The notes beneath the pieces are model-generated. The model saw only the letters and a list, made by a program, of their open reading frames with translations, was not told the origin of the DNA and ran no database searches. The position numbers and the translations under genes were made by a program. This document shows positions 21,424-63,000 of a DNA stretch of 64,000 bases, one piece after another; the stretch's first letter is position 1; the number at the start of each line of letters is the position of its first letter. Origin of the DNA: Cliona cf. orientalis (lineage: Eukaryota > Porifera > Demospongiae > Clionaida > Clionaidae); assembly GCA_963930775.1 (NCBI GenBank), contig OZ005694.1:8070045-8134044 (forward strand). The letters are read 5' to 3'.

Positions 21424-24400
21424 TTACTCAATGCCCAGGACAGTATCGTACGAGTGCACCACTAGCAGTGGTTCTGTATCTTCATCATTATTTTCGTTAT
21501 AGAAATGGATTTGATCGCAGCCGAGGGGCCCTTCGGTCGTCTTGTAATTGGAAAAAAACTGAACTTGAAACTCTGCGTACCTTGCACCTGGAGTCAAAGA
21601 AGGAAAAAAAAAGAGTAATCAATAACATAGTTGATACTCCATAATAATATATAATAATATTTATTTATTTATTTATTTATAATGAAATCTAGCATGTATT
21701 ACATACCTTCTTGAACCCAGGGGAGTATTTTTCCAGCCACTTTAAAGACATATATGCGTTGGGGGTTGTCCTCTGCAGTGATTTCATTACTCTGTATCTC
21801 TGATGAAGAAGAATCAGAGCTGTTTAGTGAATGGATGGTGACATAAACGTTCGAGTTTGAGAGGGTTTTGTCGGACAGAACCAAGCTGAAGCGAAGTTCT
21901 GCGTCCACAATATACTCATTGCTGTTGATTGACGACAGACTGAAGTTAAAGACACCACACTGTGTATTATCTGCAGGGAGGGAGGGAGGGAGGGGAAAAG
22001 ATCTGTGAATAAAGCACATTCTGTACATTGAGCTGAACCACTAATTACCTAATCATTGGCTAACTATACCCAGCACAGTGGCACCCTGTAAGATCTGTAA
22101 TAACCATAATAGTATTATGTAAATCCCAACCAGTACTTGCTAAATTTGTGTGCTCTTGGAGTTACTTTCTTGTGTGATAGTGCAAATTTAGAGCCAAGTT
22201 AATGGGAATACCTTGGCAATTTGTCACTATACATCAATCGATTTGTCAGATATTGTGTTCTAAGTGCTTAGTTGTCTAAAATATCACGTGATTTATGTAC
22301 GCATGGTAATCTGATTACTATTTCTTAAGAGGGCCACTCAAAAAAGATGAAATTTTTCCACGATTTGCTATAATTTCCAATGATCGCTTTTAATACTTCA
22401 GGTACATACATGGTCCTGATTTGACTCGGCTATTTAGTGTCAGATCGCTATTTCTTCTCCTGAGAGTACACAGATTCCAGAATAGAAATTCATATCATAG
22501 AACAAGAATTTCGTTCAGGTTTAACTTCTTTCAATATATTAGTGCAACAAAAGAGGAAGACTTTGGAGTTGCAAAAGCTTACAAACAATTGATCAGGCTC
22601 ACAAAGGGAGAATTGCCTGCTATGGTTGCTCAAGGAGGATATGAGAAGGCAATCGCTGTCAACAAACCCGTCTTTGGTCACATCGTTTATTCACAAGTTA
22701 TCCTTCTTTTTTGCTAGGCTCGTGCTAAGTAACTTCCATTATTGATGACCTGTGTCGCATCATGAACAGTCTAAGAGATTTAGAATCGGATCATTAGCCC
22801 AGGTCAAAATTGCGTGCATCGAATGACTCTCTCTCTCTCTCTCTCAAGTTATTTATAACTAGCTAGGTAAAAACAGGACTATTTTTACCACCAAGATTGT
22901 GTTTTGTAGTGGGTGCAAGCATGTGTACCAGCACTTAGCATTGCAAATAATAAGACTAGACTAGACTTCTGTCTCACTGGATGCAATGCTGTATACGTAT
23001 ATGTGATGCCGGGTTGGTATGCATGCATATAAGGTTGCCATTAAAAAGGAACTGAGTTTCAAGTTGATATCCATGGAGACAGCACTTCATGCCATACAAG
23101 GCTAGGCAGTATAATAACATTACATGGGGAGTTTTGGTATGTTGTGGTACGACATTTCACTTGTGGTCGATCACATGTACGTGCATGCTGTTTTGTATGC
23201 ACACATGATAAGATGAGATTAGCTCTACGATGCTAACTGGGTTACACATGTAGGCATAAGAGGGTGCTAATGAAGGTAGGTAGGTGACCGTCGCGTAAAC
23301 AACATCAACTGTTGAGACTGTGTGACTGCGCTAATGCGATCAACAGCTACTAACTGCATAAGTGTGGTCGAAATATTGGTATACAAGTGCATAGGCACAA
23401 AAATATGCAAGCTCCATTTAGTCTAGCATAATATTCTGGATGTTATTCTAGAGAGCCCACGTTTGCAAGTGTGTGCTTAGTTCAGTTTCATAAACAAGTG
23501 GGGGCTCTAAGTATAATAAATGCTATGCTGTCTAAACTGCTAAGGAATAGCGTATGATAACAGAGGTCACATTATGCTGTCTCCATCCCATAGTTGCAAG
23601 TCTGGCAAGGCACACAGACAGTTGAACAGTGAACTCTCTTTGAGAGTTCACAAAGTCAATTTTACTCAATTACGATGGCCGTTCTTAATTGATTGGAATT
23701 CTATTTTGGTCGACTGCCAACTTCTCAATATTTGATGTGACAATAACCGCGAGCTTGTTGCCTAGTAAGCATCAACACATAGAATCTGAAGTGATCTTCA
23801 CTTGTTTTCTCCTGAGAGCTAAAGCTATTATTATGTTAACAAATTTATTAGTGATAGTCTAAGCACCAATTTTTGAAGTAACAACGTAAACATGAACTGC
23901 TTACTCTTGGGTAAGCAAGGGGGTGAGACTGAATAGAGACAACAATAGCTCTTTAGAGATAATGCTGCCTGTGCTCAGATAATGTAACTAGTGAGAGTAT
24001 TCATGTCTCTGCCTGAACTGATAGTGTCTCAGCTGTTCAGTGACATCAAGAATGCACAAGCACTCCCATCCATATCCATACCACAGCATCTCCAGTGAAG
24101 CATGAAAATAATTTAGCCATAGATTTAGCTAGCCACAAGAAAGATCAAAGCAGAGCAGCCCACACATCTCTAATTACCTATGCATGCTGCAACAACTCTA
24201 AAACTAGTCTTGCATGCTATAGCTACTTTAAAAAATCTTGAAAATTGGCCATGGTTTGCACTATTAAGTGACACTTGTAGAATTTGTATACATGTATATA
24301 TCACTTGAAAGGGTACAGCTACTTTTTATAACAGTGAAAGAATCCCCAAGTTGCACACTTGAAAAAAAAATACTTAATAACCGATTATACGCGAGATGCG

Positions 24401-33383: not shown

Positions 33384-34226
33384 ATGAGAAGAATCATTGG
33401 CATCTTATTTGTCCTCTGCTGCTACTCCGGGGAATTTGCAAATGCCAGCTGTTTTGGATCCTTGCAAAGTTAATATCTACTATGATTGTTAGTTATAATT
33501 TATTCAATCTTGACTTTTCTTTTAGAGTACTACACTGATTGCAACGAAGCATACATGCAAGGAGAAACATGCAGTGGTGTCTACACCATAAAACCCGATA
33601 ATTATCCACCTTTTGACGTAAGACAATCCTGCAGTACTCTAGAGCTGGCTATATCTGGCTTAATCATTGAATTTTAGGTCTACTGTGATATGGACAGTGA
33701 TGATGGTGGGTGGACCGTATTTCAGAGAAGAATGGATGGGAGCGAGGACTTCTACCGTGGTTGGAAGGACTACAACAAAGGATTTGGTGATCTCAATGGC
33801 GAATTCTGGCTTGGCCTGAACAAGATCTACCGGCTCACAAGAAATAGTGATATCAATACAATACTGAGAGTAGACTTGGAAGGGTTTGATGGAGTCAAAC
33901 TGTTTGCCAAATATGATCAATTTAAAGTTCTGGACTATTCAAATCAGTATCAGCTTGTAGTGGCAGGTTACTCGGGTGACGCCGGCGATAGTCTTTCGTA
34001 CCATAGCCATCATAATTAATTTTCTCTACTAGAGATCATCTTGGCGTCCATCAGTGTGCTACGGCGTATAAAGGAGCTTGGTAGTATAATCATTGCCATT
34101 TTTCAAATCTCAATGGCTTATATCATCCTGGTCCACATACTTCATTTGCTGATGGAGTGAATTGGCACACAGCCAGGGGATATCATTATTCCTTTATGTT
34201 TAGTGAGATGAAACTTCGTCTTAATG
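33384..34226 (+). pseudogene. FReD copy 1, decayed tandem duplicate
   Basis: The exons 33384-33468 (signal peptide), 33526-33617 and 33678-34226 match those of the intact gene at 35522 almost base for base up to the second half of the FReD. There a small insertion after CATCATAAT creates a TAA at 34017-34019 and shifts the frame. A deletion and a TGG-to-TAG change then destroy the conserved WWY...C segment. No sushi exons or second FReD follow, so the duplication covered only the first three exons and the promoter. The TATA box is also altered. It could at most make a truncated secreted protein of about 170 residues. Confidence 0.85.
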
Positions 34227-35521: not shown

Positions 35522-37768
35522 ATGAGAAGAATCACTGGTATCTTATTTGTCCTCTGCTGCTACTCCTGGGAGTTTGCAAATGCCAGCTGTTTTGGATCCT
35601 TGCAAAGTTAATATCTACCATGATTGTTAGTTATAATTTATTCAATCTTGACTTTTCTTTTAGAGTACTACACTGATTGCAATGAAGCATACATGCAAGG
35701 AGAAACATGCAGTGGTGTCTACACTATAAAACCCGATAATTATCCACCATTTGATGTAAGACAATCCTGTACTCTATAGCTGGCTATATCTGGTTTAATT
35801 ATTGAATTTTAGGTCTACTGTGATATGGACAGTGATGATGGTGGGTGGACCGTGTTTCAGAGAAGAATGGATGGGAGCGAGGACTTCTACCGTGGTTGGA
35901 AGGACTACAACAAAGGATTTGGTGATCTTAATGGCGAATTCTGGCTCGGCCTGAACAAGATCTACCGGCTGACAAGAAACAGCGATATCAATACAATACT
36001 AAGAGTAGACTTGGAAGGTTTCGATGGAGTCAAACTGTTTGCCAAATATGATCAATTTAAGGTTCTGGACTATTCAAATCAGTATCAGCTTGTAGTGGCA
36101 GGTTACTCGGGTGATGCTGGCGATAGTCTTTCATACCATGGCCATCATAATTTCTCCACTAAGGATCATCTTGACGTCCATAGCTGTGCTAGGTCGTATA
36201 AAGGAGGCTGGTGGTATGGTAATTGCCATGTATCAAACCTCAATGGCTTATATCATCCTGGTCCACATACTTCATATGCTGATGGAGTGAATTGGAGAGC
36301 AGCCAGGGGATATCGTTATTCCTTTATGTTTAGTGAGATGAAACTTCGTCTTAATGGTGAATTGTTTTCTAAAGTACTTATAATATAGCTAGGTCTAATT
36401 CCTTACTTTGTTGCACTTAAAACAGCTACTGATTGTGGCTCTCCACAAGAATTTCCTGGTGCTGATGTTCAATATACAACCACGACATACCGGTCTGTGG
36501 CTACCTACAAGTGCAGGACTGGCTATGAGTCAGGCAGTCAGACCCCATCTTTGACGCAAGAGTGCCAAGGTAATGGGACGTGGACAGGGATGACTCCAAT
36601 ATGCAATCGTAAGCGAACTATATAACAGGTGACTTATATATATAGCTAGCTATAGCTGCACTATTACTGTTCTTTTATAGCTGTTGACTGTGGAGAATTG
36701 CCTCAGATTCCTAATGGTCAAGTAATTGTCAGGTCTACTAAATTTGGATCCATTGCTACATACAAGTGTGACCGTGGGTATGAGTTCACTTCTGGAGAAG
36801 AATCCAGCTATAAACATACTTGCCAGTCTGATAAGACTTGGTCTGGTACCACCCCTATATGCCAATGTGAGCTCTGATAATAATTATGACTATGCCAAAA
36901 TTAATGTAAAATCATGGTTAGCTGTTAGAAGTGACTGATCTTGTTATTATTTTGTTTCAGTAAAGCAGTATTCTGACTGCCAAGATGCTTTCAGTGAAGG
37001 TGAAACTACCAGCGGCATCTACACAATTTATCCAGACTATCAATCACCTTTTGATGTAAGCTGTATAGCTACACTGGCCTTGTTCCCAGACTCCTCCCAG
37101 CTTTAATATGGAAATACTGCATGTCATGGGCGGAGCCTGGAGGCAAGGCTACACATGTGCAGCAGTCCTGTGTCATTATGATATCATGATGATGTAATGT
37201 GTTGCAGGTCTATTGTGACATGGACACTGATGGTGGTGGATGGATCGTCTTTCAACGGAGGGAAGATGGAAGCGAAGATTTTTATCGAGGCTGGAATGAC
37301 TACGAGATTGGATTTGGAAATCTCAGTGGTGAATTTTGGTTAGGCCTAAGTAAACTTCACAGACTTACTCGCAACACTCCAATGTTAAGGATCGATCTGG
37401 CCGACTTTGAAGGCAATTCTAGATTTGCCAAGTATGCCACATTTCAGGTGCTAGATGCATCAACCATGTACCAGCTCAATGTCACTGGATATTCTGGAGA
37501 TGCCACAGATGGTCTAATAAACCACATCGAGAGTCATCAAGGGAGAAAGTTCACCACTAAAGACAGGGACAATGATTTGTGGAGCAATAATAATTGTGCC
37601 ATACGATATCATGGAGCATGGTGGTATCACTCATGCCACAGGGCCAATCTGAATGGACAGTATCTCTCTGGTTCACACAGCTCATATGCTGATGGAGTAG
37701 AGTGGGTGACTTGGAAAGGATTCTACTATTCTCTGAGGTTCACAGAGATGAAGCTATGCAAGAAATGA
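35522..37768 (+). CDS. Secreted FReD-sushi-sushi-FReD protein
   Basis: The seven exons are 35522-35606, 35664-35755, 35813-36356, 36426-36608, 36681-36866, 36961-37055 and 37208-37768. All junction phases agree, giving 581 residues. Order: signal peptide (MRRITGILFVLCCY...); fibrinogen-related domain 1 (about 32-240; DGGWTVFQRR, GEFWLGL, WWYGNCHVSNLNG); sushi/CCP 1 (about 241-301) and CCP 2 (about 302-363), each with four Cys and GY/TW..T.PIC motifs; then FReD 2 (about 368-581). FReD 2 keeps the calcium-site pattern KDRDNDLWSNNNC, whereas FReD 1 has the shortened KDHLDVHSC and has probably lost calcium binding. FReDs bind carbohydrate or acetyl groups in ficolin-like lectins, and sushi modules mediate protein contacts in complement-like proteins. 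A role in extracellular recognition is therefore likely, but it is inferred. Confidence 0.9.
37077..37150. repeat. Miniature hairpin element in intron 6
   Basis: GGCCTTGTTCCCAGACTCCTCCC pairs imperfectly with GGGCGGAGCCTGGAGGCAAGGC. It belongs to the same family as the hairpins at 20638 and 37911. Confidence 0.6.
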
Positions 37769-39323: not shown

Positions 39324-42300
39324 ATGATGAAATCAATGTGGCTGCTATTCATCTTCTGCTCCTTCCACATCTCCAGCGGTGATGTATATCACATCATACC
39401 TTCACAGAATGATCAGTGCATTGGAACAGTTTGTCAAAATACAACACTCTCCGCATTTGCTAGAGCTGCTACTTCCTCAGCCTTTCTACAACCTGAGACT
39501 ACCTTGATTCTACATCCTGGAATCCACCACCTGGACAAGGATCTTTTCATTTCAAGAATATCCAGTTTTCACATGTATTCGCACTCTTCTGAATCATCGA
39601 ACAGAGCGAAAGTGAACTGTACAAATTCTGCAAAGCTTGTGTTCTTTTACAATGATCTTATTAATATCAGTGGTGTGGATTTCGATGGATGTTCCAAAAA
39701 CATAGTCAGATTAGTAAAGCAGTTTATTCTCTTGGACTCCAATTTCAGTGGTCAAACAGGCATCTCTGGCACTGCGCTGGAGATTACTCGAAGTTGTGCA
39801 AATATGACAGGAAGTGGATTCTACTCCAACCATGGCAGTAAAATGGAACATCGTTCAATCAAGTGCCAAAGCAGCATGGACTACAAGTGGAGACGTAGTC
39901 ATACAGAGCAAGTTCATTCACCCACGGCAGGAGGAGCGATCTTTTCAAGAAGAAGCCAGGTCTACATATCGCAATGCAAGTTTGAGCGAAATAGAGCACA
40001 TGTGGGTGGAGCTATATTCTGTCAATACCACAGCCATATCATGATCAGTGATAGCACTTTTGTGGGGAATCATGCCACGTCCTTGAATAAGTACGAAAAT
40101 GGAATGTGCCTAGGGGGTGGTGGTGTGATGCATATAGAAAGTGATTCTACCGTGACCATACAAAAGTGTGTTTTCCAACGAAATACAGCTCATTATTTTG
40201 GAGGCGCTATTGATACCCTTCATGCCCACAATGCAGCATTAACTATTGATGACAGCACCTTTACTGACAATAGTGCAAAGTATGGCGGAGTTTTGAATGT
40301 ATTTGGAACATACAGCACTCGGATAAATATCACCAATAGTGAATTCGAAGATAATAATGCTGAAATACATGGTGGAGCTATAGCTCTGCTCTCAAATAGC
40401 TACTTTTGGTCCGCCTACGCAATCAAAATGAACATTGTTGACAGTAAGTTCACTGGGAACAAGGCGCAGGACCAAGGAGGAGTTGTGGCTGTATCGAATA
40501 CCGAAAATTCAATTGTATCCATCACAAAGAGCGAATTTGTCAACAACAGTGCCCAAAATGACGGAGGGGTTATGTCTGCCAGAGAGAATGATAAGATAAA
40601 TATCACTATACGCGAGAGTACACTTAATTACAACAAAGCAAACAAGGGTGGAGCACTACTGTTCTATCATAAACATCAGTACATTAATCTGTTTGTTTAT
40701 GAAAACAAATTTCAAGGGAATGTCGCTCTATCCAAAGGAGGAACCTTTTACATCGAAGGACAAAACCTAAGAATGAAGGTTGACGAAAGTTCCTTTAGTG
40801 ATTGCAGAACTGAAAGCGGAGGAGCAATGTTCCTGCGTAGTGGAGAAACTATTATCGATAACAGCAATTTTACCAGCTGCAGTGCTTCTAGTGATGGAGG
40901 TGGTGTATATTCAATTGAAGGTGTCGTACACATATTGAGGTCTACATTCGATTCCAACCATGCTGGCAAAAACGGTGGAAGTATATGTTCTGAGGGTGGG
41001 GAGATTCTTATAAATCATACTTCATTTGTAGATAACTTGGCTACAAATGGCGGAACATTGCATTCTCAGCATACACGTACAGTAATCAATGAAAGTAAAT
41101 TTAGGGGTAGCAGAGCGTATACTAGTGGAGGAACTATGTATTTGGACAGAGGAGAGACTAGCATTATGGGTACTGCAGTGTGTGATAGTATTGGCAAAAG
41201 TGGAGGAGTGATATGTTCCCATCAGAGCGACCTATTCATATCTAAAAGTGAAATTTTCAACAATCGGGCCAAAAGTGAAGGTGGAGTATTCAAGATCGAA
41301 CAGGGTACTGTGACACTCGAGCAAACCTCATTCGTGAAAAATAGAGCACACCTCGGAGCAGTCATGTGGGCAGATCACGCCACTGTTGTCTCTAATACAG
41401 TAAACATCACCGACAATCATGCAAATTCCAGTGTAGTGTACCACATGGAGAGCACGAGTAACTGGTCAAGCGTGGCATTCACGTCTAATACTGGATCTTT
41501 GTGTGCCGTTGAAAGTATTGTGACTCTAAAGGACATTGTTATGACTGACATGCTTCCAACTAATCGGTGCAGGCGAAGTAACCTTTTGGAAGAAGGAGGA
41601 GCGATAACCACATTCCAGGGCATGATAACATTTTATGGACTTAGTACACTCACGAGAAACAGTGCTTCAACAGGTGGAGCAATAAATGCAATCGAGGCCA
41701 AGCTATACATCCACGGTAATGTTACGGTCGTCAATAATACAGCAATGGGGAATGGAGGTGGGGTGTATCTTCGCCAGAGTGTACTTACCTGTCAGAGGAA
41801 CAGCACACTCATGCTGATGGGAAACAAAGCAGTGAAGAAAGGTGGCGGAATCCATGCAGTTGGCTCATCGATAAAAATCAACGGAACACTAGTCGAACGA
41901 AACTACGCATCGCTTCAATTCATTGGCAATGATGCCGAAAATGGCGGTGGCCTGAACCTTGAAATGGATGCTAAGCTGTACATATTAAAGTCAAAGCCAT
42001 ACACAGAAAAATACAAGATTGTTACATTCACAGCAAACTCAGCAGACCATGGTGGGGCTGTCTACGTATCTGACGATGGCATGTGTACTCGAGTCGCCAG
42101 AAGGGAGTGTTTCTTTCAATCGCTGGCGTTGTATAATGCATTGCCCAGTGATTCTGTACACCAGAGCGTACACTTCTCAAACAACACTGCTCTAAGTGGG
42201 CGGAATTTGTATGGAGGCCTACTCGATAGATGTATCATCAACCCACTAGCTCAAACAGATGTTATGGTTCCTCTTAATAGTGACAAAGACACAATTTTAT

Positions 42301-44318
42301 CAAATGATTCTGACTCTACCACCATGAAGGGATCCGACTATCTTCACATGATGAGCAATATCAAAAATTCCGATATTAGTTCTCCCCCTATTCGAGTATG
42401 CTTCTGCAGGGATGGCCAACCTGACTGTAGCTACCAGCCGGATCCAATACTAATCAGAAAAGGCCACCTCAACAATGTCACTCTGAGTCTTGCGGTGCTA
42501 GACCAGATTAATCATCCTCTAGTGAAGGCTAAAATCTACAGCCGCCTTAGCTCTGGGAGAGATCTCTGTCAGCATCATATTCACAGCACTGACGGCATCT
42601 GTAACCTACTAAACTTTGCTGCATTTTCCAACAATGAAATGGAAGAGCTCATCTTATTTATAGATGGCCCGTGCAGGGACGCACAAGACTGTCAGTGTAA
42701 GGTAAAGCTTGAAGTCGTTTGTCCTCACTGTCCGGTAGGTTTTAAACTTAAGGATGGAGAGGAAGGATGTCAATGTGACTGCGATTCCAAACTTAAATCC
42801 TTCATATCGGAATGCTCGCTGCCAACACAGACCATAATGAGAAAGAAAAACTGCTGGATCACAAATATCACAACTGTTGAAAATACTAACTCCAGTGATT
42901 ACCAATATCTAATCTATCCACATTGTCCCCTTGACTACTGCCATCCGGCTAGCGCAGGAGTGGCAATAAATCTAAATATTCCAAATGGATCTGACGCACA
43001 GTGTACTAATGGCCGTTGTGGACTTATGTGTGGAGAATGCCAACCTGGTCTTAGCCTATCTCTTGGCAGCTCACGCTGTATTCCCTGTTCCTCTCGCTGG
43101 CCTGCAAACCTTGCTGCCATAGTCGTAGCTGCCTTCATAGCCGGGATACTTTTGGTGGTATTGATTTTGGTGCTAAACTTGACTGTTGCTGTTGGATCCT
43201 TGAATGGAATCATCTTCTACGCTAACGTTGTGGCTGCTAATAGCAATGCATTTTTCCCATTTTCCAGGCCTAACTTTGCCACTGCCTTCATATCGTGGTT
43301 TAATCTGGAGATAGGATTCGATATTTGCTTCTTCGATGGACTGAACAGTTTCTGGAAAACACTATTACAGCTGGTCTTTCCTACATACATCTTCTTGCTT
43401 GTCATCATTGTCATTATTTTCAGCGAAATGTCGACGAAATTTTCCAAATTGATCGCAAAGAGGAATCCAGTGGCAACTCTCGCCACCCTTGTGCTAATAT
43501 CCTATGCAAAATTCCTTCATACCATCATTGCATCACTTTCATTTGCTGTTTTGCACTATCCTGATGGATCCAGGAGAGTGGTTTGGCTGCCAAATGCTTC
43601 AGTCAATTATCTCCAGGGAAAGCACATTGCTCTATTCATTGTTGCCGTTCTGATTCTTATAGTAGCACTTTTGTATACACTTCTTCTGTTTTCTTGGCAA
43701 TGGCTTCTTCACCACAAACACAGAAAGCTATTCAAGTGGATGAGATACCAAAAACTATGCCATTTCATTGAACCTTACCATGCTCCATACACAGTTAGGC
43801 ACAGATACTGGACTGGACTGCTGTTATTTATCCGAGTATTTCTCTACATCATTTCAGCCATCAATATATCTGGAGACCCTCGAGTAAGCCTGGTTACCAT
43901 AATATCAGTGGTCACCACTCTACAGCTAATTAAAGGGACGTTTGCCAAAAACTTATACAAAGCAATAGCCGTCGACATCGTAGAAACTATTATGTTCTTC
44001 AATCTTGTGATCTTTTCCACTGCAACCCTGTACACGTTTGATACAACTGAGAATCAGATAGCCATCGCTTACACCTCCGTGCTTATAACTGTCGTTATTT
44101 TCTTGGCTATCCTTGCTTTTCATATTTACAAGTACGCAGGTCTTCATCTGCTTTGTCGAAAGTCCCAATCCTTTAGAGTAGCATCCTCTAAGATTAGTGT
44201 CTACTATAAGAGAAGAAGCAGGCATGGTGACTCGATTAGAAGTCAGTTTGCTGAAGATACTTTCCCTCGATTAAACCCAACTCGTAGTGTGCTAGAGATT
44301 CCTCCACCTGAAGATTAA
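39324..44318 (+). CDS. Giant Pmp-like beta-helix multi-pass membrane protein, gene A
   Basis: This is one uninterrupted 1664-codon frame. A signal peptide (MMKSMWLLFIFCSFHISSG) leads into an N-terminal region with CIGTVC. From about residue 190 to 930 there are many imperfect ~25-35 residue repeats with GGAI/GGVM and F..N.A motifs (SKFTGNKAQDQGGV, SEFVNNSAQNDGGV), the pattern of chlamydial Pmp proteins and other right-handed beta-helices. A Cys-rich stalk follows (CFCRDGQPDC, CPHCPVGF, LMCGECQPGLSLSLGSSRCIPC, up to about 1255). Then come about 8-9 hydrophobic helices (about 1260-1600) and a basic cytoplasmic tail. N-glycosylation sequons are frequent, fitting a surface location. The repeats suggest an adhesin or receptor ectodomain; the membrane part has no family I can name, and TRP-like or GPCR-like folds are possibilities only. 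Gene B (46315) is a tandem paralogue. Confidence 0.88.
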   Translation: MMKSMWLLFIFCSFHISSGDVYHIIPSQNDQCIGTVCQNTTLSAFARAATSSAFLQPETTLILHPGIHHLDKDLFISRISSFHMYSHSSESSNRAKVNCTNSAKLVFFYNDLINISGVDFDGCSKNIVRLVKQFILLDSNFSGQTGISGTALEITRSCANMTGSGFYSNHGSKMEHRSIKCQSSMDYKWRRSHTEQVHSPTAGGAIFSRRSQVYISQCKFERNRAHVGGAIFCQYHSHIMISDSTFVGNHATSLNKYENGMCLGGGGVMHIESDSTVTIQKCVFQRNTAHYFGGAIDTLHAHNAALTIDDSTFTDNSAKYGGVLNVFGTYSTRINITNSEFEDNNAEIHGGAIALLSNSYFWSAYAIKMNIVDSKFTGNKAQDQGGVVAVSNTENSIVSITKSEFVNNSAQNDGGVMSARENDKINITIRESTLNYNKANKGGALLFYHKHQYINLFVYENKFQGNVALSKGGTFYIEGQNLRMKVDESSFSDCRTESGGAMFLRSGETIIDNSNFTSCSASSDGGGVYSIEGVVHILRSTFDSNHAGKNGGSICSEGGEILINHTSFVDNLATNGGTLHSQHTRTVINESKFRGSRAYTSGGTMYLDRGETSIMGTAVCDSIGKSGGVICSHQSDLFISKSEIFNNRAKSEGGVFKIEQGTVTLEQTSFVKNRAHLGAVMWADHATVVSNTVNITDNHANSSVVYHMESTSNWSSVAFTSNTGSLCAVESIVTLKDIVMTDMLPTNRCRRSNLLEEGGAITTFQGMITFYGLSTLTRNSASTGGAINAIEAKLYIHGNVTVVNNTAMGNGGGVYLRQSVLTCQRNSTLMLMGNKAVKKGGGIHAVGSSIKINGTLVERNYASLQFIGNDAENGGGLNLEMDAKLYILKSKPYTEKYKIVTFTANSADHGGAVYVSDDGMCTRVARRECFFQSLALYNALPSDSVHQSVHFSNNTALSGRNLYGGLLDRCIINPLAQTDVMVPLNSDKDTILSNDSDSTTMKGSDYLHMMSNIKNSDISSPPIRVCFCRDGQPDCSYQPDPILIRKGHLNNVTLSLAVLDQINHPLVKAKIYSRLSSGRDLCQHHIHSTDGICNLLNFAAFSNNEMEELILFIDGPCRDAQDCQCKVKLEVVCPHCPVGFKLKDGEEGCQCDCDSKLKSFISECSLPTQTIMRKKNCWITNITTVENTNSSDYQYLIYPHCPLDYCHPASAGVAINLNIPNGSDAQCTNGRCGLMCGECQPGLSLSLGSSRCIPCSSRWPANLAAIVVAAFIAGILLVVLILVLNLTVAVGSLNGIIFYANVVAANSNAFFPFSRPNFATAFISWFNLEIGFDICFFDGLNSFWKTLLQLVFPTYIFLLVIIVIIFSEMSTKFSKLIAKRNPVATLATLVLISYAKFLHTIIASLSFAVLHYPDGSRRVVWLPNASVNYLQGKHIALFIVAVLILIVALLYTLLLFSWQWLLHHKHRKLFKWMRYQKLCHFIEPYHAPYTVRHRYWTGLLLFIRVFLYIISAINISGDPRVSLVTIISVVTTLQLIKGTFAKNLYKAIAVDIVETIMFFNLVIFSTATLYTFDTTENQIAIAYTSVLITVVIFLAILAFHIYKYAGLHLLCRKSQSFRVASSKISVYYKRRSRHGDSIRSQFAEDTFPRLNPTRSVLEIPPPED

Positions 44319-46314
44319 GTCACCTTCATTTGTTTGTATCATACTATCAGGTTCATTATCGTTGCAAATATTTACTGTAAGTTCTGTATATTATTTCCAT
44401 GTCATTGTAGTTCTACTTATTACTATAAGCACATAACGATATCAATTAAATTTAATGTAATTCACATCATAACAATAGTACTATTATAATTTTTATGTCA
44501 CTCTCATAGATACATACTTTGCACTAGTGCTTTTTCTGCACTATTTTATGTGTCTCTTGCATACTTATGCATAAAATTATCATAAAGAAAAAATTATGGA
44601 GTATATTATATTGACTATCATGTCCGCGAAATTGGCAAAATTTTCTCCTGGTGAAAATTCTATGTATAAAATTTATGGTATAAATAATACAATGTAGCCA
44701 CAGTGACTATGTAGATTATCACAATAGAAGAATGAATAATGTGTGGCTAAATGAATTTCAACAACAGAATAGGTTGGATAATCAAGTTTCGCTCTACTAA
44801 GACTTGCTTTTCAAATTTATTATTAATTTATTTATGAAGAGGACACATCAACTTTTATACCGGACGTGCACTTGTATTCAATGATGTTATGTACACAGAG
44901 ACACGCTTCTTTGTTTATTCTCTAGCGGATAGATCAGGGGTAGCTATGCCTCAGAAGGGAGGACCACCCACCCTCCCCGGCCCCTGAATGGTATGACAGA
45001 GCAGCTGCTGAGTTGAGAATTAATGCATGATCCGTAAGTCTTCTGTTGCAAATTTTGTGCAGCAAGCCTGCCAAACCTCCTGCTGAGAAAACAGGATGTC
45101 ATGCGTTTGTTCGTGAATCCGCATTTTCGGATGTTGGAGGCAAGTCATACACAGTGAGGGGCAAAAGTGATAATTATTGGTATTAACTCTTGATTCATGG
45201 ATATATTAGGACACAACATCTGCATGGCATTGTGCTTTCATCAGCCTCCAGAAATACTGTCTGACGCTGTTTACATCCCATGCACTTTCCCTAGGTGTGG
45301 TGAGGTGGGCGTAGATCGTCATCATGTGTTTCTAATTCGGTTCTCCACCTTTGATAGTTATTTTAATTAGGATTTCCTACACGTTGGAGGGGGGAAGAGA
45401 GTAAATTGGTGGTGCTTTAAATCTAATACATAGCATAAGCTTAGATTGTGACTGGCATTCAATCCGGCAGCTGCGAATGAAGAGCTGGAGCTATAGCTGA
45501 TTAATCAAATGTATGAGACTCAGTGTGCATCAGCTTTGGAGCAAAAGATTCTTGAATACCATGATCATGTGGTCTTTGCACTATCAGTTTTTTGGCTTCT
45601 TTTTATGATGAAATTGTGTACATACTCTAGTTTGCTTTGGTTACCTTGGATACGGGGAAAATTGGTTGGAAATAATCTCATTTAGTGAGTCATACATCTT
45701 TTATTTATATTGAAAAGGTGGGGACTTACCCAATTATCCTTTGAGCTAGCCACACTCTAGCCATAGTAAATTCTAAAGACAGCTGGTCTAGAGGCCCTTG
45801 CACCATAAGTGGACTTGCTATTGTAATCGTGACCAGAAGTTTTATGGCGTGACTGTGAAAGCCGATATTATGCTTGTGGTTGGCCACTTAAATTGGACTG
45901 TTGGGCTTTCAATAGAATAAACATCCTCCCAAAGGAGACCTTTATATGATCGCCAGCAATAAAATAACAATTATAATGTTATGAAATAAGGACAGTATAA
46001 TGAGAATATGGATAATATTAATACTTCCTTGGATACAGAAGAACAGAGGCATACCAGTGGGTGGTGTGACATAATATTGAGTGACCATTACTGAAAGCAT
46101 ATAAAGGCTGCGTCCAATAGCAGTTTGATTGGTGAGTCTTCTTGATGCTATAGAAATTAAGGTAAGGTGCATAAACTAGGCCAGCATCATAATTGTGCAA
46201 GCAGTTATTAATATATGTTTGTAATCAATGAGGATGATTTAAAAGGCTCAAATAATTGAATTTTAACTCATACCTGCAGGATTGACCACCAATAGAGCTT
46301 CCCTTTATGCCAAC
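44319..46314. other. Spacer between the two giant membrane-protein genes
   Basis: The spacer is AT-rich. One piece at about 45060-45185 (after TGTGCAG) reads openly for about 40 codons and may be a decayed exon, but it has no recognised domain. A CTGCAG acceptor-like site at 46274-46279 precedes gene B, so an upstream untranslated exon of gene B is possible. Confidence 0.4.
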
Positions 46315-49300
46315 ATGATGGTGATCCTATTCACTGCAATTTTTGTTCTGTTCCTGGCAAACTTTGGGAGTCCTTCATCAGAGGAGCAGTATTTCATCAC
46401 CCCGTCACTAAGTGACCCGTGTCCTACAGACAGCTGTCTCACGTTTGATCAATTTGCGACTAATTCGACAGATTACCTCAGAAGCAACACCACATTGCTC
46501 TTTCTGGAAGGAACTCACAAGCTTGAGTCGGGATTTATGATCAAAAAGATCAATGTGTTCTCGATGCGGTCTTCAGACTCCAGCAATATATCGATAATTT
46601 GCAATGGTAGTAACTCGAGTGTGCGAATGCGATTCGTAAGAATGGGTACTCTTCACATCAAAGGTCTCACTTTTATCGGCTGCTCGGGAAATAAAATCAG
46701 AGGTGTCCAGCAATTCGTACTTGAAGATTCAAATTTCATCGGTGATTCTGAACAGGATAATGTAACTGCATCAGGAACACCATTAGAGCTAGTTGAAACT
46801 TCTGCCACCTTCATAGGGACCAATTTTAGCTTCAACAGTGGTAACAAACTACGATCTGCACCATGTACTAAGCACTACTATGACTTTCAGACTCAAGTCT
46901 TTTACTGGGGCTTGGATGCTAAGCCAAAAGTTGGAGGAGCTATCCTCACAACACGTAGCAATCTAACCATAGTGAATAGCACATTTGAAGGAAACAGTGC
47001 TCAAACGGGAGGTGCCATCTATGCAGAGCAACAGAGCAACATTACGATCATCAATAGTCATTTCAAGGAGAATCGTGTGCGTGGGTCAATATACGACTGC
47101 CATTACGAGGGAGGTGGTGTGCTATACATTGATAGCAATGGAATGAGTACTGTCACAATTGAGAGCAGTAGCTTTGAACACAATAGTGGTTCTTGGCTGG
47201 GTGGAGTCATTGCTCTATCTAGCAATGCATTTGTAAGCATATCCAATAGTAATTTTGTGAGTAACAGGGCCCGAAAGAGAGGGGGAGTGATCGATCTATC
47301 CTACTCCAAAAACGTCCATGTGTTGATCTTTGGTAGCAGATTTCTCAACAATAGCGCAAGATATGGGGCCACCGTTAATGCAGTAGGCTCTAAAGCAGTA
47401 CTCGTAGACATGAGTAACAGCACTTTTAACAACAACTCTGCAATCCAAGAAGCTGGGGTTTTGGATATATCACACGCTGACAACATCATGGTTACAATTG
47501 CTGAGAGCAAATTCATTGGCAACCGTGTGAAGAAAGACAGAGCTGGTGTCGTGGATGTGACATATTCCAGAAATGCATCCGTAAGTATTTATGGCAGTGA
47601 ACTCATTGGGAATAAAGCTGAAGGAGGTGGTGGAGTAATGGATGTATCATACACTCGAGGCATGACTATTAGTATTGACAATAGCAAATTTGAGTATAAT
47701 ATTGCCAAACGATACGATGGTGGAGCAGTTAATTTCTGGGACTCAAGCAACTTGACTATCATTGTCAAAGCCAGCAACTTCAGCAAGAATACAGCAAAAA
47801 GTGGTGGTGGAGCAATTGGACTTGGTTTCGTTACTAACGCATCTTTGACCATCGATGAGAGCAACTTCATTGAAAATAACGCAAGAGAAGCTGGAGCTTT
47901 ATACTGTGTCTGTACAAGACTAGTATGCAAGATAGCTATTGCTAGAAGTGTATTCCAAAACAACAGTGCATCCTCTGGCGGTGGAGTTTTGAGGACAAAA
48001 AACTCGGTGGTGAAAGTGGTTACAAGTTTGTTTGAGAACAACAGAGCTGGGACATACGGAGGAGCTATCATGGGTACAGATAGAGGAGAGATTACAATGA
48101 GAGACAGCCAATTCTACAATAATAGAGCTGCCTATGGAGGGACAGTCTGTGCACAGCGATCAATCATCAAGGCTTTTGCTATGGTGTCAAAGAGAAATTT
48201 AGCTGAAATTGATGGAGGAGTTTTTCATGTCTATCAATCCAATGCAGAGATAATTGGAGGTAATTTTAGTCACAACGAAGCTGAATACAACGGAGGAATA
48301 ATGTCTGCTACTAGAGCCATGGTTATGATCAGCAATGCTACAATGGATCATAATTCAGCTGGTAGTGATGGAGGAATCATAAGATCACAATCGAGTGAGG
48401 TGAAACTTTACAGCAGTAGTGTATCGAACAACCATGCTGGAAGTAGTGGAGGAGTGTTCTCCAATGAACATTGCAATCTAACTATAAGCAAAACATCATT
48501 TACAACAAATAGAGCTAATACAGGAGGCATTTTGCAAGCTGAACTAGGAACATCAATGCTCAATGATTCATCATTCTCAAATAATACAGCCCACACTGGA
48601 GCAGTTATGCATATCGTTCAATCCACAGTCCACAGCCATGCTTCAAACATAACAAAGAATTCTGGTCTCATCAGCATAGCGTATCTCTCGGATAGTACAG
48701 CAGTCTTCTCTAGACTTGATTTTTTGAATAACGTAGGAACATTGCTTGCATTTGGAAGCAGTCTAACAATTGCAGATGATAGCAATTTAATGAGCAATAG
48801 ACACCCAACTCAATGGACAAATGTACGAGAATTTTTCGAAGGAGGTACTATTACCGTGTTTCAGAGTGATCTAATTTTTAACGGAAGCTGTGAGGTGAGG
48901 AAAAATGAGGCTGAAGATGGTGGAGCCGTTAAAGCTATTGAGAGCAAAATTTATGTGCACGGCAAAGTAAGAATAGAAAACAACGTCGCTTCAAAAACAG
49001 GAGGAGGAGTGTATCTCCATTTCAGTGAACTAACATCATTCAAAAGCAGTGAACTAAACCTCATCGGTAATAGTGCATCAAATAAAGGTGGTGGAGTCTA
49101 TGCTATTGGCTCATCCATCAGAGTAAAAGAATCAAGCAATAAACGGAAATCAACTCTTCATTTTGTTGCAAATAGAGCAGAGAAGGGTGGTGGACTCTAC
49201 ATCAGGAGAAATTCCAAGCTCTACATTATCAAATCAAGACCAGATTTTGCCGCCCATAACAAAATAATTACATTCACCAGAAATTCAGCCGATTTTGGAG

Positions 49301-51570
49301 GAGCCATTTATGCCTCTGACGACGGCATGTGCAGCCTCTTTGTGAACTCATCAAGAGACGAATGCTTCTTTCAGACATTAGCAATGTATAGTGCAACAAC
49401 ACACACATCATCCGACTCCCAGTGCCATAATATATTCTTCTTTAATAACACTGCTGAGATTTCAGGCCACAGTCTGTTCGGAGGATTACTGGACAGTTGC
49501 AAAGTAAATCTATTTGCTGAATCCATTATTAAGAAAGATCTCGTAAATTCCTGGACCAGTGATGCTTCAGTGATGAGGGGACATAACTACTTCAGGAAAA
49601 TTAGCAACATTCGAGACTCCGACATTAGTTCACATCCTGTTAGAGTGTGCTTTTGTAAGGATGGAAATCCAGACTGTACCTACCAACCAGATCCTCTCCA
49701 CATCAGAAAAGGAGAAGAAAAGAAGCTAGTACTAAGTGTTGCCATTGTTGATCAGATTGAGCGTCCAATAAGAAATGCGACTCTATACTCTCACCTTGGC
49801 TCAGGAAACGATGTCTGTCAGAATCACATTCAGAAGGTGAATGGAAACTGTAGCAAAGTGAATTTTGCCATATTCTCAAACAACGATACTGAAGAATTAG
49901 TTTTGTCCATTGGTAGAGGTCCATGCAGACGGTCAGATGAATCAAAGGCAAGAGTGACGCTTGAATTCTCCTGTCTGCAGTGCCCAATTGGCTTCGAATT
50001 AGATGCTAACAGAGGGGGGTGCCATTGTATCTGCGACCCTCAGCTTTCATCATTCTTCACAAATTGCTCTGGGAAAGTTCTCATTAGGGAGAGGAATGTC
50101 TGGATTACAACTCTTAACACGAGCAGTGCTGAAAATACTAGTACCCAATACTTGATCCATCCCTTTTGCCCTCTCAATTACTGTCACCCTCCAAGTGCTC
50201 GAGTACAGTTGAACTTAAACTCACCAAGCGGAGTAGATGCCCAATGCGCTGACAGTCGCTCGGGTTTACTCTGTGGAACATGTCGACCTGGCCTTAGTCT
50301 CTCTCTAGGTAGTTCACGCTGCCTAACCTGCTCTAGCCACTGGCTTGCTCTTCTCCTAGTCATTCTCATAGTTGCCTTTTTGGCTGGTATTCTTCTTATA
50401 GTCTCTCTTCTAGTGCTCAATTTGACAGTGGCCGTTGGGACACTAAATGGAATAATCTTCTATGCTAACATAGTGGCGGCAAATGCCAGCATTTTTCTAC
50501 CGTCTTCGTGTCCCAACTTCATCACTGTGTTCGTGTCATGGCTCAATCTAGAGATAGGATTTGACACCTGCTTCTTTGAAGGAATGGACTCCTTTTGGAA
50601 GACTCTTATACAGTTGGTTTTCCCCACGTATGTCATCCTTCTCGTTGTCGTGGTAATTGTTATCTCTGAAACCTCCTCAAGATTTGCCAAGCTGATCGGG
50701 AAGCGAAACCCAGTGGCAACTCTGGCCACACTCATCCTTCTCTGCTACGCTAAGCTGCTACACACCATCATCGCTTCACTCTCCTTTACAGTCCTCCACT
50801 ATCCTGACGGCTCTCGGCAAACAGTGTGGCTTCCAGATGCCACTGTGCCATACCTCAGTGGAAAGCACATTGCCCTCTTTGGAATAGCAGTGCTCATTCT
50901 GATGGTGGGAGTTGCCTTTACTGCTCTACTTCTGTCTTGGCAGTGGATTCTTCGACTTCAGAACGTAAAAGGGTTTAAGTGGATGAATCACCAGAAACTA
51001 TTCCATTTCATAGAGCCTTACCATGCTCCGTACACCTTTAAGTATCGCTACTGGACTGGCTTGCTGCTGCTGGTACGCGTCGTTCTATACTTAGTGTCAG
51101 CTGTCAACGTTGAAGGAGATCCTAGAGTCAATCTGGTAGCAAATATCTTTGTCATTGGCAGTCTGCTGCTCATAAAGGGAGTGGTGCAGAAGTGGATCTA
51201 CAAGAAGTGGCCGCTTGACGTTCTTGAAACGATCATGTACTTCAATATACTAGCCTTGTCAGCCTTCACCTGGTACACTTTGGACTCTGATAGAAGCCAA
51301 CCAGCTGTTGCTTGTACATCTGTCATGATTACATTCTTTCTGCTTATGGCCGTCATCTTCTTTCACGTATACAAGTACACTCCCCTTGGCTCCGCCATAA
51401 AACACAGCCAGGCCTTCGAGTGGATGCTAGCTAGCTTTCGGATGAAAAAACCACAAGTTTCTTCAAAAGGTGAAGAAGAGCCAACTAAACCGACTTATTC
51501 AATCGTTGATTTGCACCATCCACACGTAATTATAAGACAAGTCTCAGTGGATGAAGAGGTAACATACTAA
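46315..51570 (+). CDS. Giant Pmp-like beta-helix multi-pass membrane protein, gene B
   Basis: The frame is open from 46282, but the first ATG (46315) begins directly with a signal peptide (MMVILFTAIFVLFLANFG), so I place the start there (1751 residues). Layout is as in gene A: a CPTDSC N-terminal module, Pmp-like repeats from about residue 200 to 1010 (STFEGNSAQTGGAI, SRFLNNSARYGATV), a Cys-rich stalk (CFCKDGNPDC, CPIGFELD, LLCGTCRPGLSLSLGSSRCLTC), then about 8-9 membrane helices from about 1341 to 1700. The membrane domain is the best-conserved part between the two genes (VAVG.LNGIIFYAN, KRNPVATLATL, FIEPYHAPYT), which suggests a shared conserved function there and a diversifying ectodomain. 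The tail ends ...DEEVTY. Having no introns across 5 kb is unusual beside the multi-exon neighbours. Confidence 0.88.
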   Translation: MMVILFTAIFVLFLANFGSPSSEEQYFITPSLSDPCPTDSCLTFDQFATNSTDYLRSNTTLLFLEGTHKLESGFMIKKINVFSMRSSDSSNISIICNGSNSSVRMRFVRMGTLHIKGLTFIGCSGNKIRGVQQFVLEDSNFIGDSEQDNVTASGTPLELVETSATFIGTNFSFNSGNKLRSAPCTKHYYDFQTQVFYWGLDAKPKVGGAILTTRSNLTIVNSTFEGNSAQTGGAIYAEQQSNITIINSHFKENRVRGSIYDCHYEGGGVLYIDSNGMSTVTIESSSFEHNSGSWLGGVIALSSNAFVSISNSNFVSNRARKRGGVIDLSYSKNVHVLIFGSRFLNNSARYGATVNAVGSKAVLVDMSNSTFNNNSAIQEAGVLDISHADNIMVTIAESKFIGNRVKKDRAGVVDVTYSRNASVSIYGSELIGNKAEGGGGVMDVSYTRGMTISIDNSKFEYNIAKRYDGGAVNFWDSSNLTIIVKASNFSKNTAKSGGGAIGLGFVTNASLTIDESNFIENNAREAGALYCVCTRLVCKIAIARSVFQNNSASSGGGVLRTKNSVVKVVTSLFENNRAGTYGGAIMGTDRGEITMRDSQFYNNRAAYGGTVCAQRSIIKAFAMVSKRNLAEIDGGVFHVYQSNAEIIGGNFSHNEAEYNGGIMSATRAMVMISNATMDHNSAGSDGGIIRSQSSEVKLYSSSVSNNHAGSSGGVFSNEHCNLTISKTSFTTNRANTGGILQAELGTSMLNDSSFSNNTAHTGAVMHIVQSTVHSHASNITKNSGLISIAYLSDSTAVFSRLDFLNNVGTLLAFGSSLTIADDSNLMSNRHPTQWTNVREFFEGGTITVFQSDLIFNGSCEVRKNEAEDGGAVKAIESKIYVHGKVRIENNVASKTGGGVYLHFSELTSFKSSELNLIGNSASNKGGGVYAIGSSIRVKESSNKRKSTLHFVANRAEKGGGLYIRRNSKLYIIKSRPDFAAHNKIITFTRNSADFGGAIYASDDGMCSLFVNSSRDECFFQTLAMYSATTHTSSDSQCHNIFFFNNTAEISGHSLFGGLLDSCKVNLFAESIIKKDLVNSWTSDASVMRGHNYFRKISNIRDSDISSHPVRVCFCKDGNPDCTYQPDPLHIRKGEEKKLVLSVAIVDQIERPIRNATLYSHLGSGNDVCQNHIQKVNGNCSKVNFAIFSNNDTEELVLSIGRGPCRRSDESKARVTLEFSCLQCPIGFELDANRGGCHCICDPQLSSFFTNCSGKVLIRERNVWITTLNTSSAENTSTQYLIHPFCPLNYCHPPSARVQLNLNSPSGVDAQCADSRSGLLCGTCRPGLSLSLGSSRCLTCSSHWLALLLVILIVAFLAGILLIVSLLVLNLTVAVGTLNGIIFYANIVAANASIFLPSSCPNFITVFVSWLNLEIGFDTCFFEGMDSFWKTLIQLVFPTYVILLVVVVIVISETSSRFAKLIGKRNPVATLATLILLCYAKLLHTIIASLSFTVLHYPDGSRQTVWLPDATVPYLSGKHIALFGIAVLILMVGVAFTALLLSWQWILRLQNVKGFKWMNHQKLFHFIEPYHAPYTFKYRYWTGLLLLVRVVLYLVSAVNVEGDPRVNLVANIFVIGSLLLIKGVVQKWIYKKWPLDVLETIMYFNILALSAFTWYTLDSDRSQPAVACTSVMITFFLLMAVIFFHVYKYTPLGSAIKHSQAFEWMLASFRMKKPQVSSKGEEEPTKPTYSIVDLHHPHVIIRQVSVDEEVTY

Positions 51571-60016: not shown

Positions 60017-63000
60017 CTAAACGTGAGTCTGCATGCTTCCCATACTGATGCTGAAAGGGCCTCTGGAATAGCTGGGTGTGGTCACACAAGACATGTGACC
60101 GTCATGTGACCTCGGTGTGGCAGGAGGGAAGCACGCATCAGAGTCCAAATTATCAGCCGACATACTGAACACGGGTCTGTGGGGCGCCGGCGGAGCACTG
60201 TGACCAGTCGTAAAAGTGGGCGTGGTCGGTGGCTGCATGCCGTGGGGCAAACTGGCACCCTTGTACGAGAATCGGGTTCCTCCATTACTATCTGGTCGCT
60301 TAGGACTTGTCAAATTACCAGAAGGACTCGTTCCGAAACTAGTCTGACTGACAGTACGAGGTCTGAGACCGCCTTGTCTCTGGGAGTATAGCGTCATGTT
60401 CCTACGCGGGTAGAGGTCTCGGGGACGCGAGTGAAAGCTCGATCGGTTAATTCCATGATTCATGACACCAGCTGATCCCGCTGACGCAGTTCTGAGTCGA
60501 TTTGACGAAAGTGACGCGGGTGGGGGATTAGCGTTAGCAGCAGTAGCGGCAGCAAGCTCTCCTCTAGAAGTGCGGAGGTGATGAGATGACAGTGACGATG
60601 TTCGTGGGGTGTGGCTCTCGCACGACGCACCACCTCCTGGCTGCTGCTGCTGTTGCCCTTCCTCTCGCTCTCGAGCTCGGTGATACTCCTCGCCTTCACG
60701 CTCCGTCAAACTCGTCTGTCCAGTTTTCATGTCCGGAGAGAGCACGTTGGATGCTACGCTGGGCATGGAGTGCGTCAGAGAGTGGTAACCTGCACTCGTC
60801 TCGGAAACCGTAGACCCAGGAGTGCCCGGAGCTTGAAAATTACTGTGCTGTTGCTGTTGGTGCTGAGGCTGTTGTTGAGATATCTCCCCAGATGATCTCT
60901 GTTGCTGAACGAGGCTACATCGGTTCGAGGAGGAGCTTTTAGAGTTCGGTCGACTTTTATTGGTTGAAGATGATGATGTTGACGATGAAGAGGAGCGGAG
61001 GTGAGCAGAGGAGGTGGAGGAGGTTGGATCTTTGTTGGCGCTAGATCCTGACGACCGTTGAATTGTGAGGGAGAGACCGTCCTTACAGGACTTAATGATC
61101 TGCTTAAAGTGCGATTGCTTCATGTTTACAGCACTCTTTCCCATCACCTGGGGTGGAGAGAGAGAGGGAGAGAGAGAGAGAAAGTGAGAGTGAGTGAAAG
61201 ACAGAGATCTTTGTGATGTTTGTGCTGCTACAGAATGCACACAATAATTGTCGCATAACAAAGGACCAATTGCAAGAGCATACTCAGTATGACCCCTACC
61301 TGAGTGATCTCATCCCCCAGAGCCAGCAGGTCTGCCGCTGTGCTGCCCTCCTCCACACTGCTGACAAAGAGCCGAGTCTCAGACGAGAATCCAAACATCT
61401 TCTTACCAGGAATCTTCACCTCCTGCAAACACAGACAGTGAGCGAGGAAGAAATAAAAAAAAACAGCATTAAAGAGCTAGGATTAACGATAAGTTATGCG
61501 TAGATTACATAGCCCCAAATCTGATATTAGAAGTAATCATTACACATTTCCAACCAAAAGCATGCAAAAATATGGGAGCAAACTATGTCAATATTTCATG
61601 ACAGCACTGACTGCATTGTCAAAGGCAAAGATGCTGATGACAATGACATATTCATGGACATGAGACTCGGTCCAATAAAAGCATGAGAAGAACAGGGGCA
61701 AACTTGAGCAAGTATGTATCGTCCCTTCGAGAAAAACAAGGAACAGACCATCAAAAAACAGATTTTGCACTCAGGATACAAAATGTCTCAGAATTTGGAC
61801 ATAAACCTCATGTGCTAAACACATGTATATTTCAGCTTGTTACACAGACAGGAGTGACTTACTTGTGGGAGGGGCTTCACATGGGATGTAATTCTACCAA
61901 TCTCCAAGATGATGGAGAGCTGGTCACATGACCTCAGTGACTCTGTGGCTTCCCTTCGAGCGATGCTGGTGAAATCTCGGCTATTGACTGATAAAATTCG
62001 ATCACCAAACCTATATTATTTGGATATTATAAGTATTCATCATGGCTCTCTCTCTCTCTCTCTCTCACTTCATCAATATCATGGATCAATTCTCGTTTAC
62101 CTCAATTTTCCATAAGCAGGTGATATCTCAGAGATCCCCGTGACGACAATTGAGGGGTCATCGCGATAAAATTCTGATCCCTTCCCCCCTTCAATGCTGA
62201 ACCCCCATGGCTGGGTGGCTGTGTTGCGTTCAAGCTTCACAGTGAGATTATCACAAATCTATCAATGTTGACAAAAACACAAAAAGTAGAGCATTTTAAT
62301 ATCGTTGAATCACCGACAGTACATATGACATTGTCAGTGTTATGATAAATTTGAAAAGATTAGAAGATTTACATTATATATATGTACCTTTTGCAACTAG
62401 GCCCATACCTATCTTACTCACAAAATTAGGGGTGATAGGGTAGCTATATACTTGTACTTTGATGTGTACAAATCTTGTATACCAATTACAAGTATTACAA
62501 GTGAAATAGGCATCTGAGTTTGAAATACCATTCTGAGTTGAAATACCTATCTGACTTTGTGTATGTATACTATTAGCCTGTGATAGTGAGGTTGTACCGT
62601 AAAGTCTGGTTAATAAGCGCATGCGCTTATCACTCTCGGTGGTAAGGAAACATGCGCCTATTAGACGATGTGCGCTTAATAGAGAGTGAAATTTTGGCCC
62701 CGCCCACTGACAGCACGTTCGAGCGCTCGATCACAAAGCTAGCAAGTTATGAACATAGCGATTCTTGGAATAAGCTCCGTAATAGTTCATGGGAGTATGA
62801 TCGGAAGCCATCGCTGGAAGAAAACCGTGGAAAAATAGCTGACTTCTTCGGCGAAACTCGCTTCGAAGTCAAGGTCAAGAGTCCGAACCCGTCTCAGTGG
62901 AACATCACAGTGTTGAGTATAGCCGATCTCGTGCAGCTGGTTATCCGAAAATAGGTTGGTTTAATTAGTTCTAGCCATGTAGAGCATGGAACACTCTTGA

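Follow-up and report, generated by a model that had tools for sequence, protein, structure and literature searches.

Two adjacent genes in the window

The window, by which we mean the whole 64,000 bp stretch of Cliona cf. orientalis DNA that was analysed, corresponds to C6:8070045-8134044 in a genome totalling 216.8 Mb. It carries two adjacent genes on the forward strand, here called A and B, and the uninterrupted frames found at 39324-44318 and 46315-51570 agree with the initial annotation, which had described two intronless genes of 1664 and 1751 codons. The open frame of gene B ends at 51570 and has its first ATG at 46315, with a TTG start upstream at 46282. The order of domains is the same in both genes, a hydrophobic start being followed by a repeat ectodomain of approximately 1000 residues, a stalk, a polytopic region and a tail, as listed below in window positions.

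39324..44318, forward strand: gene A, single-frame ORF with an ATG start, 1664 codons plus stop
39324..39377, forward strand: gene A, signal-peptide-like hydrophobic start, judged by eye from the translation
39378..42365, forward strand: gene A, ectodomain with Chlam_PMP-type repeats, from the Pfam match and motif counts
42366..43106, forward strand: gene A, cysteine-rich stalk ending CGECQPGLSLSLGSSRC..C, borders approximate
43107..44126, forward strand: gene A, polytopic membrane domain of approximately nine helices, borders approximate
44127..44315, forward strand: gene A, predicted cytoplasmic tail, common motif in PTRSVLEI (SVLE at 44286-44297)
46315..51570, forward strand: gene B, single-frame ORF, 1751 codons plus stop from the ATG at 46315
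46315..46380, forward strand: gene B, signal-peptide-like hydrophobic start, judged by eye
46381..49614, forward strand: gene B, ectodomain, modelled by AlphaFold2 as a beta-helix (mean pLDDT 73)
49615..50349, forward strand: gene B, cysteine-rich stalk, the last approximately 31 residues matching DUF7630 below cut-off
50350..51369, forward strand: gene B, polytopic membrane domain, approximately nine helices, proposed to be N-out/C-in
51370..51567, forward strand: gene B, predicted cytoplasmic tail, common motif in PTYSIVDL (SIVD at 51499-51510)

The stalk string C-G-x-C-x-P-G-L-S-L-S-L-G-S-S-R-C, which had been read from the translations earlier, is present in both genes. A signal-peptide-like start is visible by eye in 17 of the 22 translated genes of the wider family described below.

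Beside the pair, three exon-like Fibrinogen_C frames (33678-34016, 35825-36388 and 37199-37768) lie on the forward strand between 33678 and 37768. At the start of the window (1-4919, forward strand) are frames for proteins of a Helitron rolling-circle transposon, with Helitron_like_N/Rep in one frame and a PIF1 helicase and an OTU protease in another. On the reverse strand, 21699-22040 has a sub-threshold match to TGF-beta propeptide (20.9 bits against a cut-off of 25.8) and is perhaps one exon of a TGF-beta ligand, and 60017-61309 is an open frame of 430 codons with no Pfam match. A bacterial promoter scan between genes A and B was set aside as meaningless in this DNA.

Repeats and predicted fold of the ectodomain

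Both proteins match Pfam Chlam_PMP (PF02415) above the cut-off of 20.6 bits (gene A 75.5 bits, gene B 49.5 bits) and NCBIfam POMP_repeat above its cut-off of 15 (32.8 and 24 bits, respectively), and no other Pfam family was found in either at E 0.1. Motif counts exceed anything seen in 200 shuffles: GG[AVG][ILVFM] occurs 19 times in gene A and 17 times in gene B (shuffle maximum 3), and F..N occurs 18 and 26 times, respectively (shuffle maxima 10 and 14). The Pmp-like array of GGAI/F..N repeats that had been noticed by inspection is thus upheld. The two motifs are also regularly placed. F..[ND] is found 22 times in gene A and 31 times in gene B and is followed 5-12 residues later by GG in 11 and 12 cases, with an offset of 8-9 in 22/23 of these paired cases and of 10 in the remaining one, and successive GG motifs are 25-30 residues apart in 31/43 intervals over both genes. 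Both rung motifs exceed all 200 shuffles in 19/19 long ectodomains of the family, a count that omits four ORFs (two at L037, and L043 and L045) that are broken, short or without an anchor. The same 19 ectodomains each carry 20-50 N-glycosylation sequons (counts only, with no shuffle comparison), and ectodomain and stalk together span 880-1916 residues over 19 copies, the shortest being a front-truncated copy.

AlphaFold2, run on the gene B ectodomain with two sequences, returned a long beta-helix with a mean pLDDT of 73 (below 50 in 169/1078 residues, mainly at the C-terminal end), so that the beta-helix ectodomain foreseen in the initial annotation holds as a prediction. In Foldseek searches with this model, Ag43, a PL6 alginate lyase and a GH110 enzyme account for six PDB chains at E ≤ 0.001, and pertactin and PfbA follow at 5e-3. 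TM-scores normalised by query length are low, at 0.12-0.23 among the ten best matches, and the rmsd is large, so the likeness is one of fold class, not of detail. The matches to Ag43- and pertactin-type helices suggest that the modelled rod is right-handed. For gene A, a beta-helix is assumed from the 40% identity of its ectodomain to that of gene B. A PDB sequence search with gene B gave no match at E 1. A caveat is that AlphaFold2 can over-predict beta-solenoids, a bias described for perfect repeats (PMC11795689), whereas the repeats of genes A and B are imperfect and match a family.

The closest described systems share the rung and differ in what follows it. In chlamydial Pmp autotransporters each rung carries an FxxN and a GGA motif as a pair, as described in PMC10715098, and genes A and B resemble them in this pairing (FxxN with GGA[ILV]-type motifs) and in a long beta-helix, here a predicted one. 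However, no Pmp middle domain or autotransporter barrel was detected by Pfam in genes A and B at E 0.1, which fits the earlier view that the bacterial-type barrel is absent; in their place are a cysteine-rich stalk, many N-glycosylation sequons, a helical polytopic module and a tail. The attribution of Pmp repeats to bacterial autotransporters, on the other hand, proved too narrow, as the repeats are not confined to them according to PMC10715098 and PMC6701047. The Pmp-like proteins of Trichomonas vaginalis (48 members), as PMC6701047 describes them, are likewise eukaryotic and expanded, and a membrane anchor and tail of eukaryote type take the place of the barrel. By that description alone, their C-terminal transmembrane domain is often single and they carry an ATPITK motif, whereas the sponge genes have ten hydrophobic peaks, of which approximately nine would span the membrane, a conserved stalk and another tail motif.

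A stalk and membrane module found across the genome

The C-terminus of both proteins is made up of hydrophobic, helix-like segments and is better conserved than the rest. Between genes A and B the membrane part is 62% identical (362 aligned codons), the stalk 55% and the ectodomain 40%, which confirms the suggestion that the membrane domain is the more conserved part. In the stalk, 17 cysteines are invariant in 16 copies. The juxtamembrane stalk and membrane part have 70 invariant columns in 18 type-1 copies (types are defined below), and 17 of the columns of stalk and membrane part remain invariant when one protein each of types 2 and 3 (L055 and L056) is added. These include R1588 in helix 6, W1505 in an outer loop and the stalk cysteines 1320, 1323 and 1336, invariant over the three types as sampled. 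This shared conservation speaks against a set of unrelated hydrophobic segments, and neither of the two outcomes that would have overturned the initial annotation was seen. The type-1 alignment (A1) holds 18/22 rows, near-duplicate or extra copies (L033, L035, L038 and L048) having been omitted, alignment A5 holds 16/22 rows (L033, L035, L036, L037, L038 and L045 omitted) and alignment A6 holds 11 rows.

We propose that the membrane module has approximately nine helices and is N-out/C-in. Ten hydrophobic peaks were found and nine were taken as spanning, a partly fitted topology in which the peak at 1402-1420 was left out to obtain N-out/C-in. The density of K+R is 0.207 per residue in the proposed inner loops and 0.062 in the outer loops (tail excluded), a pattern that supports this orientation without proving it, because the helix set was chosen to end inside. 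Sequons in the loops are uninformative, being present in 0-2/18 rows per inter-helix loop, inner and outer alike. Of the 8-9 C-terminal helices given originally, the polytopic character therefore stands and the number is refined to approximately nine as the best fit.

The searches made with the module found no clear relative. AlphaFold2 on the stalk and membrane domain (two sequences) gave an unusable model with a pLDDT of 35. No Pfam family reaches its cut-off in 18 type-1 membrane modules, PDB profile searches with the module gave only designed helical proteins as best matches (E 0.098 and 0.055) and no credible relative, and the stalk profile found nothing in PDB at E 5. Pfam likewise detected none of the domains that mark adhesion GPCRs (7tm, GPS and GAIN), either in genes A and B at E 0.1 or in the 18 membrane modules at E 10. 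The only PDB match of the type-2 protein, RACK1 (E 0.0031, 61/570 residues), is put down to chance, RACK1 being a soluble WD40 protein. The juxtamembrane approximately 31 residues (G-LCG-C...SLSLGSS-C..C) align to positions 14-45 of the 45 in DUF7630 (PF24633), and 15/18 type-1 modules match it at E 10 (best E 0.0009). However, gene B scores 16.6 bits against the curated cut-off of 27, and unrelated families reach similar E-values (e.g. Acetone_carb_G, best 0.0064, 4/16). Two short peptide patterns per collection matched 58 stretches in a viral collection (IMG/VR) and 33 in prokaryote genomes, and tblastn showed no relative encoded in any of them; as far as such short patterns reach, nothing supports a recent acquisition of the membrane module from bacteria or viruses.

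When the genome was searched for further copies, as the initial annotation had advised, the stalk and membrane module was found at no fewer than 241 distinct places on contigs C1 to C19, in three types (84 + 76 + 81, fragments included). The description as a tandem pair therefore captures two adjacent copies that are indeed present but is too narrow. Not all of the places counted are whole genes, and the three counts are lower bounds because every scored candidate matched in each search. Type 1, for which the C-terminal 514 residues of gene B served as the query, occupies at least 84 places (84 scored among 1799 candidates), 56 of them within frames that run for 1400 codons or more without a stop and seven with stops. 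A degenerate 26-base pattern for NPVATLATL has 132 matches in the genome and none when read backwards. Types 2 and 3 came to light through weak PF06011 matches. Type 2, represented by L055, occupies at least 76 places, and at 39 of these a frame of 1000 codons or more is free of stops. It is 34% identical to gene B over 481 columns spanning the stalk and the membrane module (E 1e-59). L001 and L002 are also read as type 2 from the sequence of these two parts, and L002 has Pmp repeats at 37.8 bits. Type 3, represented by L056, occupies at least 81 places, with many fragments and intact frames mostly of approximately 580 codons, and forms dense, fragment-rich clusters at C3:3337083-3526938 and C15:5340398-5453590. 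A profile of types 1 and 2 aligns with type 3 at an hhalign probability of 97.4 (E 1.4e-11, a single-pair E-value), and no place is common to the three lists. Judged by this homology, types 1, 2 and 3 are one stalk and membrane module family of this genome, multiplied both in clusters and genome-wide. Two copies on chromosome 2 (L053 and L054) are split or interrupted and hence are not intact single frames.

Other sponges, and cnidarians too, have similar proteins that are uncharacterised. Searches of the open-access PMC literature for sponge or other animal proteins of the Pmp or pectin-lyase type gave no title or abstract opening on this family. An unnamed domain cluster in Amphimedon queenslandica, listed among putative novel domains in PMC3386278, consists of 18 segments, two of which have the pectin-lyase (beta-helix) fold, and at a guess it could belong to the same family.

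After the last helix, the tails vary in length and sequence and keep one short motif, [ST][VIL][VIL][DE], often T-[FY]-S-V-V-E, which is present in 24/30 distinct tails. In 500 shuffles the mean was 2.3 and the maximum 7, a comparison that overstates significance since the rows are related. The six tails lacking it are a single residue (L017), one that diverges abruptly from its relatives (L005) and near-variants such as T-F-S-F-I-E (L021, L024, L032 and L054). A YxxPhi endocytic motif was rejected, as its 17/30 tails compare with a shuffle mean of 14.3 and a maximum of 23.

The ectodomain is less identical than the membrane part in 54/55 pairs (means 48% and 66%), the pairs being drawn from 11 proteins that remained when 9 of 20 long proteins were dropped for want of anchor strings. 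Among 15 close pairs formed by six copies on chromosome 6, dN/dS ranges from 0.35 to 0.55 in ectodomains, whose alignments take in 50-98% of the longer protein, from 0.18 to 0.34 in stalks and from 0.26 to 0.52 in membrane parts. In 14/15 of these pairs the ectodomain value is above that of the membrane part, and none reaches 1. The ectodomain is thus less constrained, and with domain-wide values under 1 throughout these 15 pairs there is no sign of ectodomain-wide diversifying selection. The dN/dS comparison of gene A with gene B, which the initial annotation had advised, proved uninformative, as NG86 yielded no dS for any domain and YN00 a value for the membrane part only (dS 2.2, dN/dS 0.14).

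In 150-column windows, the closest partner of a copy changes along the protein. L039 and L042 on chromosome 6 are 31-69% identical to their best partner at the front of the rod and 91-94% identical in the last three windows, a mosaic that unequal crossing-over or gene conversion would give and that misalignment of repeats differing in copy number may exaggerate. L036 and L038, approximately 39 kb apart on chromosome 6, are 99-100% identical, and together with L035 they form a set that is 98-100% identical in overlapping windows. We read the near-identity of the three as recent duplication or conversion.

A candidate recognition receptor family

The reading we favour, tentatively, is that these genes encode a diversified family of sponge surface recognition or adhesion receptors that signal or gate through the approximately nine-helix module; the adhesion receptor or mechanosensor role put forward in the initial annotation likewise stays a hypothesis. 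Genes A and B would be plasma-membrane glycoproteins whose predicted beta-helix rod stands outside the cell on a stalk that is probably rich in disulphides. The rod differs from copy to copy in the sequence and number of its loops and rungs, which may bind something on other cells, matrix or microbes. The conserved module would then relay binding, by conformational change or gating, to a predicted cytoplasmic tail in which a single short motif, putatively for docking, is retained. Short or broken copies are numerous, and part of the expansion may be junk.

The strongest competitor of this receptor reading starts from sub-threshold matches to the TRP-like family PF06011, in which case the module would be a distant member of that superfamily and the rod a lever by which force or ligand gates a channel. 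A genome search with PF06011 gave six such matches and none in 14 control genomes. Four of the six fall inside type 3 (22.5, 21.8 and 20.7 bits) or type 2 (20.5 bits), where they weakly align with profile positions 322-413 and 275-421, respectively, towards the C-terminal part of the profile. The invariant R1588 and W1505 also suit an active module more than an anchor. Against this, none of the six reaches the cut-off of 28.5 bits, genes A and B themselves have no match, hmmscan matches the type-2 protein at E 1.6 and fails to match the type-3 protein even at E 10, and TRP, polycystin and ion-channel matches are absent at E 10 from the 18 type-1 modules. With no credible PDB relative of the module and no pore or selectivity motif identified, we regard a channel as rather unlikely. 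A lower probability still attaches to a plain adhesin, in which the membrane part is a mere anchor and the protein mediates cell-cell or cell-matrix adhesion without signalling of its own. Adhesins are among the nearest folds of the rod model, and expression of trichomonad Pmp-like proteins is reported in PMC6701047 to raise adhesion, yet an approximately nine-helix module conserved beyond the rod, an invariant arginine in a membrane helix and a kept tail motif exceed what an anchor needs.

The broken and truncated copies would also be expected if the family were largely non-functional, a burst of copy number by unequal crossing-over that has left most copies silent. Stops in 7/84 type-1 matches, the many broken or truncated type-3 matches, the split or interrupted L053 and L054 and the near-identity of L036 and L038 all point that way. 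However, two-thirds of the type-1 matches (56/84) lie in long stop-free frames, and dN/dS is well below 1 in every domain of 15/15 close pairs from the six chromosome 6 copies. We therefore consider a mostly silent expansion improbable, and return to the receptor reading.

The matching Cliona cf. orientalis assembly has 25,502 annotated genes according to PMC12639293. Against that number, a stalked module of approximately nine helices, acting in signalling or as a channel and present at no fewer than 241 places in a single sponge genome, many of them with recombining rods of the bacterial-adhesin-like beta-helix kind, might possibly represent an unnamed class of animal receptors and a germline-diversified repertoire that recognises microbes or self, a broader proposal about which we are doubtful. 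Genes A and B show the Pmp rung combined with a helical polytopic module in an animal, and the motif conserved in the tails offers a handle for finding the pathway. Sponges host dense microbial communities and recognise self, but their variable recognition molecules are poorly known. A family of this size (fragments included) that pairs a variable rod with a conserved module is an obvious candidate for such a recognition repertoire.
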